From: a virus
Length of the DNA stretch: 21,903 nucleotides
Reading direction: 5' to 3' (one strand)
Virus record (IMG/VR): IMGVR_UViG_3300025860_000100
Coordinates: 1 to 21,903 of that record
Within the stretch, counting starts at the first letter, position 1. The number at the start of each line of letters is the position of its first letter. The translations under genes were made by a program, and so were the position numbers. This document shows positions 11,057 through 21,851 of this stretch, one piece after another. The notes beneath the pieces are model-generated. The model had not been told where the DNA came from, did not search any database, and saw only the letters and a list, made by a program, of their open reading frames with translations.

Positions 11057-11133
11057 CAAGCAAGTGTAAAACAAGTGTAAAACAAGATTTGCCGTCTTCG
11101 CTTTACTTCACTTCACTTCCCGCTTGAGGTTTT
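11057..11133 (+). terminator. Candidate rightward terminator of the late block, with 11-bp tandem repeat
   Basis: CAAGCAAGTG at 11057-11066 pairs with CACTT-ccc-GCTTG at 11114-11126, a 10-bp stem with a 3-base bulge, followed by AGGTTTTATTC. The interval also holds two tandem copies of CAAGTGTAAAA (11061-11071, 11072-11082). The stem is long and imperfect and the T-run is short, so termination of late transcripts here is only plausible. Confidence 0.33.
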
Positions 11134-11382: not shown

Positions 11383-11769
11383 TTAATTGTAACTGATTGG
11401 TTGGTAGCTGGAACTGGCCAGCATTTTTTTATGCTCTTCACGGTAATGCTTTGCTATCTCAGCCCTTAACAACTTGTTAGTGGGCATCTTAACATTCCAC
11501 TTCTCTCGCAACATCTCCATATGACCTGGCCCTAAGTGCTCCATACACCACCTGCTGAAGTCCAGTGGGTTGGCAGTGAACGTCCGGTGACAGTAATGGC
11601 AGAGACAAACTGCGTTATCTAAACTCCACCTAACTGATTTGGCTGCCCTTCCGTATATGTGGGCGCACTCTTGTCTGCCAAATTTTCCGCAATGCTCGCA
11701 AGTAGACTCGCTCTTCAGTCTTACTACGTCACTAAACCACTTATCTGCTGCATCTCTTTTAATTGTCAT
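11383..11769 (-). CDS. HNH endonuclease, NinG/Rap-like zinc protein
   Basis: Start chosen at 11769 (MTIKRDAADKW): it overlaps the stop of the preceding PP-loop gene as ATGA and has AAGGAG ten bases upstream; the longer frame from 11793 lacks this. The 128-residue protein has a treble-clef HNH core: Cys24-x2-Cys27, the AHIYGR segment with His37, Asn52, then Cys57-x2-Cys60-His61 (CHYCHRTF). Phage HNH proteins of this size include lambda NinG/Rap, a branched-DNA endonuclease of the nin region, and homing-type nicking enzymes. Its place in a cro-O-ninB-like operon favours the NinG-type recombination role, but the NinG N-terminal zinc region is absent. HNH fold is well supported; specificity is not. 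Confidence 0.8.
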   Translation of the reverse strand: MTIKRDAADKWFSDVVRLKSESTCEHCGKFGRQECAHIYGRAAKSVRWSLDNAVCLCHYCHRTFTANPLDFSRWCMEHLGPGHMEMLREKWNVKMPTNKLLRAEIAKHYREEHKKMLASSSYQPISYN

Positions 11770-12506
11770 AATGCTAGTTCTCCTTGCGCCCATTCACATG
11801 TGAAACCGCAGTCGCTAGGCTTATCTTTCTTGAAATTCCCTCTGTCGCTTGCAAGAACATCCAGAAACACGGGGCCATCTTTATCCTTGTTAATGGCATG
11901 ACCTATTTTACGCTCCAAGATAGCCATCTTTTCAAACGCATCGGGGAAGTCATACCTGATTTTATTCCAATACCCCATTCCACCCTTCACGCAGCCAATG
12001 CAATTATTATTACTGTAACCCAGTTTATACATAATAGGTGTGTCAATGCCCAAGCTTTTTATAAATTCCATGCAGTTTTCTTTATCTATGCCTTTGTCAT
12101 GCAATATAAAATCTGTAATTACTTCATTGTTAGAGTCAATAAATCTATTTACTCTATTAGTTTCTTCAGATGTATATCCAAATATTTGAATGTCAGAGTC
12201 ACGCTGATAGGATTTCCTTACATCTTTTTTTAAAATCATTGTACAAGGTGCTCCAGTCGGCCCTTTAATAAACTTCCTAGATTCAAACACGTTATAAATA
12301 GAAAATTCTTTGCTTTTATCGCCTATAATTTTAACTGGAATGCCAGTTTTTTGAGAAAAATCACGCAAAAACCTTAAATTATCCTCATGTTCCTCGGCAA
12401 CCCTGCAATACACTGCTTCAAACTCACAGTCTTGATATTTTTTACTGGCCAAATAAGTTGCGTAAGCACTTGCAGCTCCGCAGCTAAACCAAGATATAAC
12501 CCTCAT
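11766..12506 (-). CDS. PAPS-reductase-like PP-loop ATP pyrophosphatase protein
   Basis: A 246-residue protein with AGGAG upstream. The N-terminus has a PP-loop variant, FSCGAASA at 7-14, in place of the usual SGGxDS, which in this superfamily binds ATP/PAPS phosphates. Further family-like features are GPTGAPCTMILKK (82-94), NNCIGCVKGGMGYW (168-180; Cys169-x2-Cys172) and CGFTC (Cys233-x3-Cys237). Four of these cysteines could hold a metal or Fe-S cluster, as in related PAPS/APS reductase and DndC-type enzymes. Its reaction in phages is not established; sulphate reduction, DNA or nucleotide thiolation are possible. The 3' two thirds of the gene is noticeably more AT-rich than its neighbours, suggesting separate acquisition. 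Confidence 0.78.
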   Translation of the reverse strand: MRVISWFSCGAASAYATYLASKKYQDCEFEAVYCRVAEEHEDNLRFLRDFSQKTGIPVKIIGDKSKEFSIYNVFESRKFIKGPTGAPCTMILKKDVRKSYQRDSDIQIFGYTSEETNRVNRFIDSNNEVITDFILHDKGIDKENCMEFIKSLGIDTPIMYKLGYSNNNCIGCVKGGMGYWNKIRYDFPDAFEKMAILERKIGHAINKDKDGPVFLDVLASDRGNFKKDKPSDCGFTCEWAQGELAL

Positions 12507-12633: not shown

Positions 12634-13089
12634 TTAACTATTCTGCTGCCTCTTTAGTTCAGTGTACTCATTATCCTTTGGCATGGGTAGATACAAATCT
12701 CTTTCAGATGCCCAGTGTAATACTTGATCTAAAAAATAACACATCTCACCAGTGTCCAGATCTCGTAGACTAACTAACTGGTCTTTCACAACAGTAGATC
12801 CAACCTTGATTGTTTTTCGCGGCCCAAACTTGTGCTTCATCATCCACTTGCAGCCTTCCTCTGTGGCCTCTGGCTGCTTCTTAATAAACTGTGTGGACAT
12901 AGCTCTGAACCATATGTGGGCTAACGCTATTTGGCTGGTTGTTGCCCTGCCTTGAAACCTCTCTAGCCTGACAGCGCATGGGGTTGAGTAATCCCACCCC
13001 CCTAACCTGTCGATAATAGCTGGCAATCTTTTCTCAAAATCGCCCAAACTCTTGATGAGATAGTAATCACCTTGGGTAATTTCTGTCAT
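12634..13089 (-). CDS. NinB-like recombination protein
   Basis: Start placed at 13089 (MTEITQGDYYL): this ATG overlaps the upstream stop as ATGA and is preceded by AAGGA, whereas the longer frame from 13110 is not. The 151-residue protein has the layout of the NinB / Orf-like family: a beta-rich first third, then RATTSQIALAHIWFRAMSTQF (the usual place of the R-S-x-x-Q-N-x-x-x-W helix), a central TEEGCKWMMKHKFGP helix, and RDLDTGEMCYFLDQVLHWASE near the end. Lambda NinB (Orf) is a recombination mediator that binds SSB-coated single strands. The DNA-binding function here is inferred from family pattern and from operon context between replication and HNH genes. Confidence 0.68.
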   Translation of the reverse strand: MTEITQGDYYLIKSLGDFEKRLPAIIDRLGGWDYSTPCAVRLERFQGRATTSQIALAHIWFRAMSTQFIKKQPEATEEGCKWMMKHKFGPRKTIKVGSTVVKDQLVSLRDLDTGEMCYFLDQVLHWASERDLYLPMPKDNEYTELKRQQNS

Positions 13090-13541
13090 ACTAATTTCCT
13101 TCTTAACCATTCATTCATTACTTTGGATGATCGTGTTTCGCATCTTACTATTTGCTGAACACCTGGGGTTGTCAAAGCCATGTCATTAATAAACACTCGG
13201 CTTCCTCTCATTCTTTCTCGGATTAACTTTTCGCTTATACCAAATGCCTTGCCCAGTTGAACATAACTGTAGCTCTGGCCAGACACCAGGTCTTTATGCT
13301 CACCCTGATATTGAATCATTCGACACCGGCTAGTTAAGGCTCGGACTGGAAACAAATCGCAGTCTCTTACTACCCGAGTAACGCCTCGGTGTTTAAATCT
13401 ACTTTGAATTGTTTGCGGGCTAATTGAAATTGCGTCTGCAAAGTCGGCCATGCAGTAAAAAAACCCTGAAGTTAAAGCTTTATGGTTGTTGCCTTCATAC
13501 AAAAACATTCGTTTGCCGCTTGGTGTAAGTCTTTTTGCCAT
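13086..13541 (-). CDS. DNA-binding-like protein with duplicated HTH module
   Basis: A 151-residue basic protein with AAGGAG eight bases before the ATG. It consists of two similar modules of about 55 residues. Module one (about 11-66) reads RMFLYEGNNHKALTSG, then FADAISISPQTIQSRF, then FPV; module two (about 73-127) reads RMIQYQGEHKDLVSG, then LGKAFGISEKLIRERM, then TTP. Each starts with a beta hairpin and continues into a helix-turn-helix-like segment (IS-x3-I-x-x-R). I infer a sequence-specific DNA-binding protein, perhaps regulatory or architectural. It lies between the replication initiator and NinB-like genes, where lambda has P, but nothing suggests a helicase loader. Confidence 0.65.
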   Translation of the reverse strand: MAKRLTPSGKRMFLYEGNNHKALTSGFFYCMADFADAISISPQTIQSRFKHRGVTRVVRDCDLFPVRALTSRCRMIQYQGEHKDLVSGQSYSYVQLGKAFGISEKLIRERMRGSRVFINDMALTTPGVQQIVRCETRSSKVMNEWLRRKLV

Positions 13542-13562: not shown

Positions 13563-14351
13563 CTAATCTGCCCATGATGTATCGGTTAATTGTTGGTGTA
13601 TAGACTGATCTCTAATTGAATCAGTTTTAGTTTCTTTCTTTGCAGTCTTATTTGACTTCTCTCTAGCACCCCAAGACCCAATAGTCTTTGGCCAAGAGAT
13701 CATCTTGTTCTTTCCAATTCTCCAGCCATTAGCCTCGTAGTGATGCCAGAAGACAGAAGGATCTATTCCAGAACCTTTCCTGTTGCAGTATTCAATGACC
13801 TCATCCAGAGTTGGCGGGACAAAACGCTTAACCGGCTTATCCTCTGGTTCGTCAATAACTACTACTTCATGTTCAACTTCTTCTTCGAGAGCTGGGGAAC
13901 TTGTTTCCCCCCTATTATCTGTAATATTAGATGTAGTATTAGATGTAGTATTAACTATTAAGTTTTCTTGGGTAGGGTCATTAAGTTTTCTTGGGGAGGG
14001 TATTAAGTTTTCTTGGCTACCCTCATTAAGTTTTCTTGGGGAGGTGGGTAAGATTTCTTGCATAGGGTTATCGACCAACTTCAAGTACCTGGCTTGGATC
14101 TGCTTAGTGCCTTCTTTGTACTGTAGTTGTCTTGTGATGTACCCACAATCGACCAGTGAACTGATCCACTGGCTAACTGAAGTCTCTGTCTTGCCATAAA
14201 GATCAGCAAAATAGGCATTACGCGCCCAGCAGTAACCTTTATCGTTGCACAGAGCAGTGATTTCCCCATATAAAAGTTTAGCGTTAGCCGTTAAACGTAC
14301 GTCATAGCGGACGCTTGCAGGAATGATGGCGTAATACCCTTTGCTATTCAT
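13563..14351 (-). CDS. Phage replication initiator / replisome organiser (lambda O-like)
   Basis: A 262-residue protein started by a TAATG overlap with the regulator gene. Residues about 8-92 form a winged helix (YDVRLTANAKLLYGEI, then NAYFADLYGKTETSVSQWI and a wing GYITRQLQ), as in the N-terminal origin-binding domain of phage replication proteins. Residues 98-132 are a low-complexity linker of PRKLN and QENLI units encoded by DNA iterons; an acidic stretch EEEVEHEVVVIDEPED follows. The C-terminal domain (178-230: FVPPTLDEVIEYC, FWHHYEANGWRIGKNKMISWPKTIGSW) is the segment common to many phage DnaD/O-type proteins. I infer that it binds the iterons inside its own gene and recruits the helicase machinery, as lambda O does; family assignment is by pattern. 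Confidence 0.8.
   Translation of the reverse strand: MNSKGYYAIIPASVRYDVRLTANAKLLYGEITALCNDKGYCWARNAYFADLYGKTETSVSQWISSLVDCGYITRQLQYKEGTKQIQARYLKLVDNPMQEILPTSPRKLNEGSQENLIPSPRKLNDPTQENLIVNTTSNTTSNITDNRGETSSPALEEEVEHEVVVIDEPEDKPVKRFVPPTLDEVIEYCNRKGSGIDPSVFWHHYEANGWRIGKNKMISWPKTIGSWGAREKSNKTAKKETKTDSIRDQSIHQQLTDTSWAD
13918..13956. repeat. AT-rich tract with 12-bp tandem repeat beside the iterons
   Basis: TATTAGATGTAG is repeated at 13925-13936 and 13937-13948, followed by a further TATTA. The segment is strongly AT-rich and lies directly next to the last iteron, where lambda ori has its easily melted region. It encodes the NTTSNTTSN stretch of the initiator. Duplex-unwinding function is inferred. 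Confidence 0.55.
13957..14061 (-). repeat. Five iterons inside the replication gene: lambda-type origin candidate
   Basis: On the minus strand the 15-mer CCAAGAAAACTTAAT occurs four times without change (14039-14025, 14016-14002, 13994-13980, 13971-13957), with a degenerate fifth (GCAAGAAATCTTACC, 14061-14047). Starts are 22, 23, 22 and 23 bases apart, about two helical turns. Each unit has a partial dyad (AAG-AAAA-CTT). Inverted GAGGGT (13996-14001) and ACCCTC (14019-14024) flank the unit at 14002. Since 22 and 23 are not multiples of three, the same DNA is read alternately as PRKLN and QENLI. An AT-rich tract follows at once, as in lambda ori. Confidence 0.8.
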
Positions 14352-14551
14352 TACTCACCCGCCGCAATAAACTCGCTGACTTCTACGTTAAAGGTTGCAG
14401 CAAAGGTTAAAAGGGTACTAGCTCGCGGTGATCTATGCTTATTTCTGATCAAGCTAATAGTAGAAGGATTGATTTTGGAGATTCTTGACAGCTCAACTGA
14501 TGACATCTGGTCGCGTTCCATAAAGAATTTAAGTGATTTGTTAATATCCAT
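14351..14551 (-). CDS. XRE-family Cro/CI-like regulator
   Basis: A 66-residue single-domain repressor-like protein, the same length as lambda Cro. The five-helix HTH_3 fold is readable: SLKFFMERDQMSSVELSRIS, with the turn SRISKINPSTISLIRN (residues about 22-37) and a C-terminal helix STLLTFAATFNVEVSEFI. AAGGA lies seven bases before the ATG. It is the first gene of the leftward early operon and sits next to the divergent early promoters, so it very likely binds operators there. No CI-sized repressor or other regulator is visible between the promoters. It overlaps the initiator gene as TAATG. Confidence 0.85.
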   Translation of the reverse strand: MDINKSLKFFMERDQMSSVELSRISKINPSTISLIRNKHRSPRASTLLTFAATFNVEVSEFIAAGE

Positions 14552-14577: not shown

Positions 14578-14606
14578 ATCATAGCCCTTTGTTAAATTAA
14601 TTGCAA
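14578..14606 (-). promoter_or_regulatory. Leftward early promoter
   Basis: On the minus strand TTGCAA (14606-14601) is followed after 17 bases by TATGAT (14583-14578), a good sigma70-type match. Transcription would start near 14571, about 20 bases before the regulator gene. The -35 lies inside a perfect 8-bp palindrome ATTGCAAT (14600-14607), a possible operator half-site. Confidence 0.65.
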
Positions 14607-14614
14607 TAGAACAA

Positions 14615-14642
14615 TTGACTACTTGCGAGAAGTGTGTAAAAT
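14615..14642 (+). promoter_or_regulatory. Rightward early promoter
   Basis: TTGACT (14615-14620), 16 bases, TAAAAT (14637-14642). The two early -35 boxes are back to back, eight bases apart. The interval holds AATTG and CAATT in inverted order (14599-14603 and 14612-14616), and GTGT/ACAC arms flank the -10 region; these are candidate operators for the XRE regulator. The start would lie near 14649, just before AGGAG at 14658-14662. Confidence 0.62.
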
Positions 14643-14921: not shown

Positions 14922-15083
14922 ATGAATTTAGAAACTTCAACTTATCTTAACGATATTGATCGTGGGGATATGGACTGTAAGGTAGGAAATGAAGCGCCCA
15001 GTGATGAAACTGAGGCGTATTACATTGGATACGGTGCAAGATATGTATTCGAGCAAATGAAATCAGCAGGAGAATTTAACTAA
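14922..15083 (+). CDS. Short early protein (53 aa), unknown function
   Basis: A 53-codon frame starting one base after the preceding stop and ending in a TAATG overlap with the annealing-protein gene, so it fills the gap exactly. GGTGGGG lies about six bases before the ATG. The protein is acidic (NDIDRGDMDCKVGNEAPSDE) and ends in a helix with EAYYIGYGARYVFEQMK. The perfect fit between neighbours supports it as a real gene. Function is unknown. Confidence 0.68.
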   Translation: MNLETSTYLNDIDRGDMDCKVGNEAPSDETEAYYIGYGARYVFEQMKSAGEFN

Positions 15084-15628
15084 TGACAAGTAAAAGCGTA
15101 TGGGCCACATTATCGGCTATTGATTGCAGTGCTCACATAGCAAAAAAAGGGCAGCTATCTTATCTCAGTTGGGCATGGGCGTGGCAAACCTTGAATGAGC
15201 ACTACCCTGAAAGCACTTTTGAGTATTTTCAGCCAGAGTCACTGCCAAATGATACGGTTGAAGTATCAGTTGCCGTAACAGTTGAGGGTAAAAGGCATTC
15301 CATGTGGCTACCAGTCATGGATAACCGAAACAAAAGCATAGTGACACCAACTAGCAGAGACATATCTGACGCTAGAATCAGGTGTTTAGTCAAGTGTATT
15401 GCCATGCACGGTCTAGGCTTGTACATTTATGCTGGTGAAGACTTGCCAGAAGCTGCTAAGACTGAGGTTTTGACTCCAGCGCAGGCTGAAGACATTAAAG
15501 ACTTGCTTGAACAGGCTAATGGTGACGTTACTAAGTTCTTGGGGTTCTTTAAAGCCAGCAGTGTAGACGAAATGCTAGCAATTCATTACCCCAAAGCTGT
15601 TGCTGCACTAAAGGCGAAGATTAAGTGA
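15083..15628 (+). CDS. Single-strand annealing protein, DUF1071 / Sak3-like
   Basis: A 181-residue protein. It opens WATLSAIDCSAHIAKKGQLSYLSWAWAW, the signature beginning of the DUF1071 family, continues with VAVTVEGKRHSMWLPVMD, and has the conserved block DISDARIRCLVKCIAMHGLGLYIYAGEDLP. The family belongs to the Rad52-like group of phage annealing proteins (Sak3). The C-terminal 50 residues (LTPAQAEDIKDLLEQA) are a helical tail seen in many phage annealing proteins. It would pair complementary single strands made by the exonuclease encoded two genes downstream, with SSB next to it: a complete Red-type recombination module. Overlaps the next gene as GTGA. Confidence 0.85.
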   Translation: MTSKSVWATLSAIDCSAHIAKKGQLSYLSWAWAWQTLNEHYPESTFEYFQPESLPNDTVEVSVAVTVEGKRHSMWLPVMDNRNKSIVTPTSRDISDARIRCLVKCIAMHGLGLYIYAGEDLPEAAKTEVLTPAQAEDIKDLLEQANGDVTKFLGFFKASSVDEMLAIHYPKAVAALKAKIK

Positions 15629-15810
15629 GCTTGAGGAAGGCCATTAATGACTATTGTAAGGGTTGTATCTACGATAGTCTGGCCCCAGGCACTTGGTTAA
15701 AGCAGGTAGAGGACTGTAGTTCGCCGAATTGTGAGCTTTATCCTGTCAGACCTAAGCCTAGATCAAGAGGTGATGGCGATGCAGATATTATCGCATGTTC
15801 AGGGGAGTGA
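15625..15810 (+). CDS. Small Cys-rich zinc-binding-like protein
   Basis: A 61-residue protein starting at GTG in a GTGA overlap with the annealing-protein stop. It carries the pattern CKGC, then VEDCSSPNCELYPVRP, a four-cysteine arrangement common to a family of tiny phage proteins (C-x2-C, about 14 residues, C-x5-C-x-LYP). The cysteines probably bind zinc; the function is not known. Its 3' end overlaps the exonuclease start by 32 bases. No Shine-Dalgarno is clear, so translation probably relies on coupling. Confidence 0.72.
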   Translation: MSLRKAINDYCKGCIYDSLAPGTWLKQVEDCSSPNCELYPVRPKPRSRGDGDADIIACSGE

Positions 15811-16390
15811 TGGGTGGCTTGGCAGTAGGATCGGTAGGCCGTCAGCCTCGCAGTTCAGTAAGTTGATCACTACTTCAGGTAAACCTTCAGGCTCTGCTGG
15901 TAAATACATTGAGCAGCTAGTCATTGAGCGTTTATCTGGTGAGCCTACTCCGCATTTTCAGTCTGAGCATATGGCAAGAGGTAATGAGCTTGAGCCAGAG
16001 GCGCGTGAATACTATGAGCTGATGACTGGTAACACTGTAGTTGAGGCTGGTTTTATCCTCGATGACAGTGAAGAGTTTGGAGCCAGTCCTGATGGGCTAA
16101 TAATGTGCGATAACGAAATTGTTTCAGGTTTAGAGATAAAATGCCCAGCAGAAAGCACTATGCTAGGCTACATTGAAAAGCCCATGAAAGGCGTTAAGCA
16201 ATACTGGCAGCAGATCCAGGGCTGCATGATGATAACGGAAGCTAAAACGTGGGATTTCCTAGCATATCATCCTGAGATGGAGCCTGTACTGGTGACAGTT
16301 GAGTACGATGAAGAGTTTTGTAGTAAAATGTACGATGAGATCGTGAAAGCGGTCAATATAATTAACCAAGAGTGTGAGGAATTAGCATGA
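15779..16390 (+). CDS. YqaJ / lambda-Exo-like recombination exonuclease
   Basis: Start chosen at 15779 (MQILSHVQGSDGWLGSRIG), with AGAGG eight bases upstream; ATG at 15773 is an alternative, and the longer GTG frame from 15731 has no support. The 203-residue protein has the YqaJ/lambda-Exo PD-(D/E)xK core: RIGRPSASQF near the start, ARGNELEPEAREYYE (65-79), Asp105 in GASPDG, Glu119 and Lys121 in LEIKCP, and a later YWQQIQGCMMI helix. This family degrades one strand of linear duplex DNA 5' to 3' and hands the single strand to the partner annealing protein. It ends in an ATGA overlap with SSB. Confidence 0.9.
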   Translation: MQILSHVQGSDGWLGSRIGRPSASQFSKLITTSGKPSGSAGKYIEQLVIERLSGEPTPHFQSEHMARGNELEPEAREYYELMTGNTVVEAGFILDDSEEFGASPDGLIMCDNEIVSGLEIKCPAESTMLGYIEKPMKGVKQYWQQIQGCMMITEAKTWDFLAYHPEMEPVLVTVEYDEEFCSKMYDEIVKAVNIINQECEELA

Positions 16391-21489: not shown

Positions 21490-21693
21490 CGGGCTAATGA
21501 AATCAAGGGGTTAAATCTAAAGAAAGGGATTAGATAGGTTATAGCACATAATATCGCTCTCATGATCTCAGGGAACCATTAAAACGGTGCATAAACTGTA
21601 GTAAGTGGGCCTAATCTATACGATGGCATAGATACCTTTATGGTATGGCAATAATGCGCTGTATAGGTGGATAGAAAGAGGCCTTTAATAACC

Positions 21694-21770
21694 TGTGGAT
21701 AAGTGTGGGCATAAGCTGGGGATAAGTGTGTGCATAAGCTGTGGAAAAGATGTGGGTAAGCTGTGGAAAA
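21694..21770 (+). other. Seven phased DnaA-box-like 9-mers
   Basis: All in the same orientation and within one mismatch of TGTGNATAA (complement of TTATNCACA): 21694 TGTGGATAA and 21729 TGTGCATAA are exact; 21706 TGGGCATAA, 21717 TGGGGATAA, 21740 TGTGGAAAA, 21751 TGTGGGTAA and 21762 TGTGGAAAA have one change. Starts are 12, 11, 12, 11, 11 and 11 bases apart, leaving 2-3 bases between boxes. This is the gap seen in arrayed low-affinity DnaA sites of E. coli oriC and lets DnaA oligomerise on one face of the helix. Confidence 0.75.
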
Positions 21771-21851
21771 GAGGCACCCCCTCCCCGAAGCGTGGCATGT
21801 GAATGGTATATATGTCTCTCTCAAAAAAAAATTACCAATTATAGGTGAAGC

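Follow-up and report, generated by a model that had tools for sequence, protein, structure and literature searches.

An origin of replication inside the gene for an initiator is a known kind of arrangement, represented by gene O of bacteriophage lambda and by the plasmids pSK41 and pPR9. In lambda, the textbook case (PMC4488673, PMC7466680), four iterons and then an AT-rich tract lie within the initiator gene, and the N-terminal domain of the protein is the part that binds. The origins of lambdoid Stx phages are grouped with the lambda ori inside gene O as the system closest to the one described here. Passages of PMC5703833 describe the RepA_N initiators of pSK41 and pSK1 as having a winged-helix N-terminal domain and four Rep boxes placed centrally inside rep, and identify the sequence coding for the linker as the origin of RepA_N plasmids, pSK41 among them, the linker being dispensable as protein in trans. 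According to the same passages, the initiator of the staphylococcal plasmid pPR9 carries a pfam13730 domain that is similar to a phage replication protein and was acquired with its origin region, its C-terminal domain is that of pSK41, and a pPR9 mini-replicon works; those passages hold no description of pPR9 iterons. Co-specificity of initiator and origin, with swapping of modules, is known for PLE RepA (PMC8263062).

The locus described here lies in an IMG/VR virus record, and the stretch that was analysed, referred to as the window, is 21,903 bases long. Judging from its named relatives the phage would be of marine type: those nearest to its internal virion protein are enterobacterial and marine Vibrio phages, at <32% identity among the matches listed. 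The initiator gene, whose DNA-binding family is the one found in pPR9, is the second gene of a leftward operon, behind a Cro-like gene, and is made up as follows:

13563 to 14351, minus strand: initiator gene, 262 aa, with N-terminal winged helix, disordered linker holding the putative origin, and helical C-terminal domain (ORF, PF13730, PHROG, AF2 model)
14061 to 14336, minus strand: N-terminal winged-helix DNA-binding domain, residues 6-97 (AF2, HTH_36)
14148 to 14186, minus strand: predicted recognition helix, residues 56-68, including Thr57 and Gln61, whose positions co-vary with bases 1 and 3 of the iteron (AF2)
13566 to 13832, minus strand: C-terminal region, helices 182-255 (AF2; phrog_15768 over residues 139-248, E 1.5e-19)

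That the gene encodes a winged-helix, initiator-like protein, as an earlier note on this DNA had proposed, is borne out by a match to HTH_36 (PF13730) over residues 19-72 (E = 6.8e-12; 45.5 bits against a curated Pfam cut-off of 25) and by matches over domain plus linker to phage replication-initiation protein families (phrog_19658, E 1.9e-31; phrog_270, E 1e-29). The AF2 model, built on a shallow alignment of 14 sequences, has a winged helix to about residue 97 (pLDDT 59-89 over the block of residues 11-100), disorder over 98-173 and helices over 182-255. Foldseek searching with this model returned generic winged-helix matches alone (best E 0.009), and fold similarity to the Rep-DNA entries 5kbj, 4pql and 4pt7 was weak (E 0.05-0.09). 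There was no match to RepA_N (PF06970) in the Pfam search of the initiator, none in the NCBIfam search, and none in a sequence search of solved structures with the family profile. The C-terminal region is presumed to be the replisome-recruiting part. Other homologues carry a different C-terminus: at loci L071-L098 the winged helix and linker layout is similar to that of the window gene and the C-terminal domain is quite different, of an FWxxYPRKxGK type, which indicates that the C-terminal module is swapped, much as described for pPR9 in the passages of PMC5703833.

Five copies of a 12-bp core, CAAGAAA(A/T)CTTA, lie on the minus strand inside the initiator gene, and an AT-rich block comes after them:

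14049 to 14060, minus strand: iteron core 1, CAAGAAATCTTA, frame 0 (the copy at first read as degenerate)
14027 to 14038, minus strand: iteron core 2, CAAGAAAACTTA, frame 1
14004 to 14015, minus strand: iteron core 3, CAAGAAAACTTA, frame 0
13982 to 13993, minus strand: iteron core 4, CAAGAAAACTTA, frame 1
13959 to 13970, minus strand: iteron core 5, CAAGAAAACTTA, frame 0
13917 to 13955, minus strand: AT-rich block with the 12-bp tandem AATACTACATCT, the probable strand-opening region, encoding an Asn/Thr-rich stretch

The earlier note had counted four unchanged copies of a 15-mer and one degenerate copy, in alternating frames and with an AT-rich 12-bp tandem repeat following at once, and this description proved accurate. 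Exact copies of the 15-mer CCAAGAAAACTTAAT (minus strand) stand at 13957-13971, 13980-13994, 14002-14016 and 14025-14039; the degenerate copy at 14047-14061 is one base off the other cores in the 12-bp register, which makes five good copies. Elsewhere in the window the 15-mer has no match at <=2 mismatches and a single site at three, and shuffled sequence gave 0.13 matches at <=2 mismatches, with 0/100 shuffles reaching four. On the coding strand the cores are 22, 23, 22 and 23 bp apart and fall in gene frames 0,1,0,1,0, and the AT-rich repeat stands directly after them at 13920-13953, in a block of 77% A+T. The iteron dyad of the window genome is imperfect at its outermost base (C..A). Iterons and AT block coincide exactly with the part of the gene that codes for the disordered linker in the AF2 model.

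The iterons of lambda, like those of the window, are dyads with an A-tract centre and occupy several reading frames; lambda has four of 18 bp at 20/24/23, and the window five 12-bp cores at 22/23 bp. Since the four annotated lambda iterons are read within gene O in frames 0, 2, 2 and 1, multi-frame iterons are not new, and the novelty implied in the earlier note by the alternating frames was overstated. The lambda gene order is cro, cII, O, P, ren, ninB, ninC (PAPS reductase) and, further on, ninG. In the window the initiator is followed downstream by one gene and then by NinB, PAPS-reductase-like and NinG genes, so that a cro or cro-like gene, an initiator with its known or candidate origin, ninB, a PAPS reductase gene and ninG are common to both in this order. 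The match places the window initiator where lambda has O. The neighbouring features are:

14351 to 14551, minus strand: HTH gene of Cro/C1 type, immediately upstream of the initiator and corresponding in position to lambda cro (PF13443, E 1.4e-6)
12634 to 13110, minus strand: NinB/Orf-like gene, as in the lambda nin order (phrog_72, E 2.1e-11)
11766 to 12506, minus strand: PAPS-reductase-like gene, at the place of lambda ninC (phrog_424, E 4.8e-46; lambda NinC annotation)
11383 to 11793, minus strand: NinG/Rap-like gene (phrog_5034, E 1.3e-16)
14578 to 14642, no strand assigned: promoter-like sites placed back to back, separating the leftward from the rightward early genes; weak (3 found against 3.1 expected)

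The gene between the initiator and NinB (13086-13541), at the place of lambda P/ren, encodes 151 aa in two helix-turn-helix-like halves. The window yielded no recognisable homologue of lambda P and no recognisable helicase-loader gene, the place of lambda P included. Lambda O belongs to PF04492/TIGR01610, whereas the window initiator is an HTH_36 protein; searches with PF04492 and TIGR01610 gave no match to it, and profile comparison detected no homology to lambda O (hhalign E 0.73). PHROG models named 'O-like' do match the initiator (phrog_678, E 2e-10). The earlier description of the locus as lambda-ori-like thus holds for layout and gene order and fails for membership.

Because 22 + 23 = 45 bp = 15 codons, the array doubles as a 15-aa repeat in frame, SPRKLNxxxQENLIP, and the two copies per frame in the window genome could be explained by one in-frame 45-bp duplication. 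Alternating frames were accordingly rejected as proof by themselves, and homologues were needed. In a codon-by-codon comparison among seven close relatives, synonymously variable codons numbered 0/35 in the array against 84/206 elsewhere (P = 1.1e-7), the latter comprising 31/94 degenerate codons of the DNA-binding domain and 53/112 of the C-terminal part. The array had a pS of 0.021, against 0.25 and 0.35, and pN/pS was 1.6 in the array, 4.8 in the AT block and 0.08 in the DNA-binding domain. Every variable array codon alters the amino acid, and the nine variable array nucleotides occupy 7/44 spacer positions and 2/60 core positions. As judged from these alignments, the array repeat is conserved as DNA and not as peptide. 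The earlier argument that protein-level selection is insufficient is upheld by these synonymous sites, although not by the frames alone, 45 bp being in frame. The AT block too is, by the same comparison, held at the DNA level: pS was 0.022, with 1/13 degenerate codons synonymously variable, and across homologues its Asn codons are AAT:AAC 1405:5 against 3293:1574 elsewhere in the same genes, counts that take in near-duplicate homologues. Such an AAT bias across the family would be expected of a melting region.

Scans of viral contigs and of bacterial and archaeal genomes yielded about 350 homologous loci, with some overlaps and near-identical entries among them. Of 96 non-redundant linkers, drawn from phages and from bacterial genomes, 88 contain a direct repeat that was significant against codon-shuffled controls, mostly with a period of 22-24 or 45 bp. 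Dyad sites centred on an A-rich stretch numbered 143 against 44.5 +/- 7 in codon shuffles, dyad and A-rich centre not being independent findings because the iteron caller demanded both. Among 118 non-redundant homologues with a callable repeat in the same linker, 84 are multi-frame (63 with two frames, 21 with three). Adjacent copies in these linkers are spaced by 22 bp (73), 23 bp (94) or 24 bp (45), and in-frame spacings make up 54/224, which indicates that spacing follows the helix and not the codon. Many Firmicute members have an in-frame 24-bp spacing; in the clade around locus L012, read from the sequences, the four iterons keep a constant spacing of 23 bp and so pass through each of the three frames, and there is no 15-aa repeat. 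The HTH_36 initiators of Firmicutes, Bacteroidota and marine phages (L002-L353) share the domain, the linker repeats and the AT-rich Asn/Thr block, with iteron arms that differ between lineages as residues 57 and 61 do. The earlier note had asked whether homologues keep the linker peptide and lose the DNA repeat; the opposite was found, with dyads 22-24 bp apart in any frame, peptides that differ and an array free of synonymous change. HTH_36 initiators with in-linker iterons also occur on a contig binned to a Borrarchaeum archaeon (L181) and in a Saccharibacteria MAG (L178), where a binning error is possible. A C- or G-rich element around CCT recurs in iteron spacers across phyla, with a weak consensus about 4-7 bases before the dyad core, and is perhaps part of the iteron site.

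Half-sites were called from DNA alone and then set against each column of the N-terminal domain. The column that best accounts for base 3 is residue 61 (z = 16.2, the runner-up reaching 6.3), and for base 1 it is residue 57 (z = 12.6, the runner-up reaching 4.7). Arg61 is present in 42/43 linkers with C3 (C3:G10) and in 2/55 with A3, and 55/60 of the G1 linkers have Arg, Glu or Lys at residue 57; the window protein, with Thr57 and Gln61, has C1 and A3 and matches the family pattern. A single helical turn separates the two residues in the predicted recognition helix, and since it is these two that stand out, the initiator very probably binds the repeats in its own gene. On a tree built without columns 57 and 61 the C3 trait needs 22 changes, and 20/22 disjoint pairs agree with Arg61 while 0 oppose. 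For G1 with R/K/E57, a grouping picked after the table was seen, 22/29 disjoint pairs agree and none oppose (Arg57 alone: 15 agree, 1 opposes). Few branches are starred in trees of the 95-column domain, whose support is poor, so that the independence of the switches rests on the best tree and their number is approximate; restriction to strongly supported (starred) branches leaves 1 to 4 pairs.

The code proposed from these comparisons would have Arg at residue 61 specify C at base 3 and other residues mostly A; at residue 57, Arg, Lys or Glu would specify G1, small or amide residues mostly C, and Val mostly A or T. On the best tree there appear to have been some twenty switches of specificity, in which protein and in-gene site changed together, and origin specificity could therefore be predicted from sequence alone. 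It is likely that HTH_36 initiators form one very widespread, self-contained class of replicon, in which the gene holds its own binding sites and two residues set bases 1 and 3. A literature search, which may have missed older work on Firmicute phage origins, found no description of HTH_36-family iterons or of a residue-base code. What seems new here is a marine-type phage member with a lambda-like gene order and a code of this kind that can be read. The origins of most environmental phages are unknown, and those of the HTH_36 class could be found from sequence by locating the gene and reading its linker dyads. The family-wide code is the added value, directly testable, and offers a cheap and direct handle on the joint change of initiator and origin specificity.

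We put at roughly 0.87 the probability that the array and the AT-rich block are the phage replication origin, lying where its own initiator gene codes for the linker. The lines of evidence are constraint at the DNA level, helical spacing free of frame, and residue-base co-variation; from them a mechanism can be proposed. The N-terminal winged helix would bind each dyad, probably as a dimer that places a recognition helix on each half-site; within the CAAG half-site, base 1 would be faced by residue 57 and base 3 by residue 61. With iterons two helical turns apart, initiator proteins would be aligned along the same side of the DNA, the neighbouring AT-rich block would then open, and the C-terminal domain would bring in a helicase or helicase loader. 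With the bases serving as binding sites, the linker peptide would be free to change and copies could fall in any frame. The HTH_36 binding site would be carried inside the gene that encodes its reader, as one stretch of DNA with two jobs, of which the binding-site job wins while the peptide drifts.

Protein-DNA contact at the array could also serve transcription, with the initiator or its Cro-like neighbour binding the in-gene repeats to repress or tune expression and the origin lying elsewhere. A winged helix and dyads suit a repressor as well, a Cro-like gene is directly upstream of the initiator, and DnaA-box-like sites are present elsewhere, at 21694-21770. The repeats, however, are about 300 bp inside the gene, where a search for promoter-like sites found none, and the AT-rich block with its extreme AAT bias follows them across the family. 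The same protein family, moreover, drives the working plasmid replicon of pPR9 in the passages of PMC5703833. Operators instead of an origin are thus improbable; autoregulation may exist in addition to origin function. Iteron arrays also act as centromeres and packaging sites, and a site of either type might lie in the initiator gene by chance. This is more doubtful still: no partition genes were noticed in the window, a likelier packaging array is the 23-bp repeat at 21688-21771, just before terminase-like ORFs on an overlapping contig, and the co-variation is with the initiator itself.

Two further accounts place the constraint in RNA or in protein. Synonymous-site constraint alone cannot separate DNA from RNA, and a structured mRNA or antisense RNA could hold the bases of the array; yet folding is little better than in shuffles (z -1.08 for the mRNA strand, -1.74 for the other), so that RNA structure was rejected for want of any clear excess stability, and both the 22-24 bp spacing and the recognition-helix co-variation would be left unexplained. 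We regard such an element as highly unlikely. A repeated linker peptide, with the DNA repeat a by-product of a recent 45-bp duplication, would account for the 15-codon period and the two occurrences of SPRKLNxxxQENLIP in the window, but it sits badly with zero synonymous variation alongside ongoing amino-acid change, with the three-frame arrays of L012 and its kin, with the disorder predicted for the linker by AF2, and with the dispensability in trans of the corresponding pSK41 linker in the passages of PMC5703833. It has very little probability beside an origin in the linker-coding part of the gene.

Other features of the window were recorded in passing. GC skew turns near 14 kb but tracks gene strand; it was set aside as an origin marker, its turn coinciding with the direction of transcription and so giving no independent evidence. 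On the rightward side, 15083-16390 encodes a single-strand annealing protein of Sak type and then a YqaJ-type exonuclease; among those listed, the best Sak matches are to Weissella and Lactococcus phages, although the structural gene that was searched matches enterobacterial and Vibrio phages. Short tandem repeats at 11061-11119 (CAAGTGTAAAA x2.4 and CTTCA x4.8), in the gap where the late genes and the leftward early genes converge, are possibly a terminator region. A second tandem array, with a 23-bp unit ATAAGCTGTGGAAAAGTGTGGGC, occupies 21688-21771 (position 1228 onward of contig L354) and includes four DnaA-box-like sites at 21694-21770 (TTATCCACA, TTATGCACA and two of TTTTCCACA); it may be a DnaA-dependent element. 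Contig L354 overlaps the end of the window at 99.7% and, farther on, has ORFs that look like terminase and portal genes; the array, just before the terminase-like ORFs, is thus a candidate packaging site.
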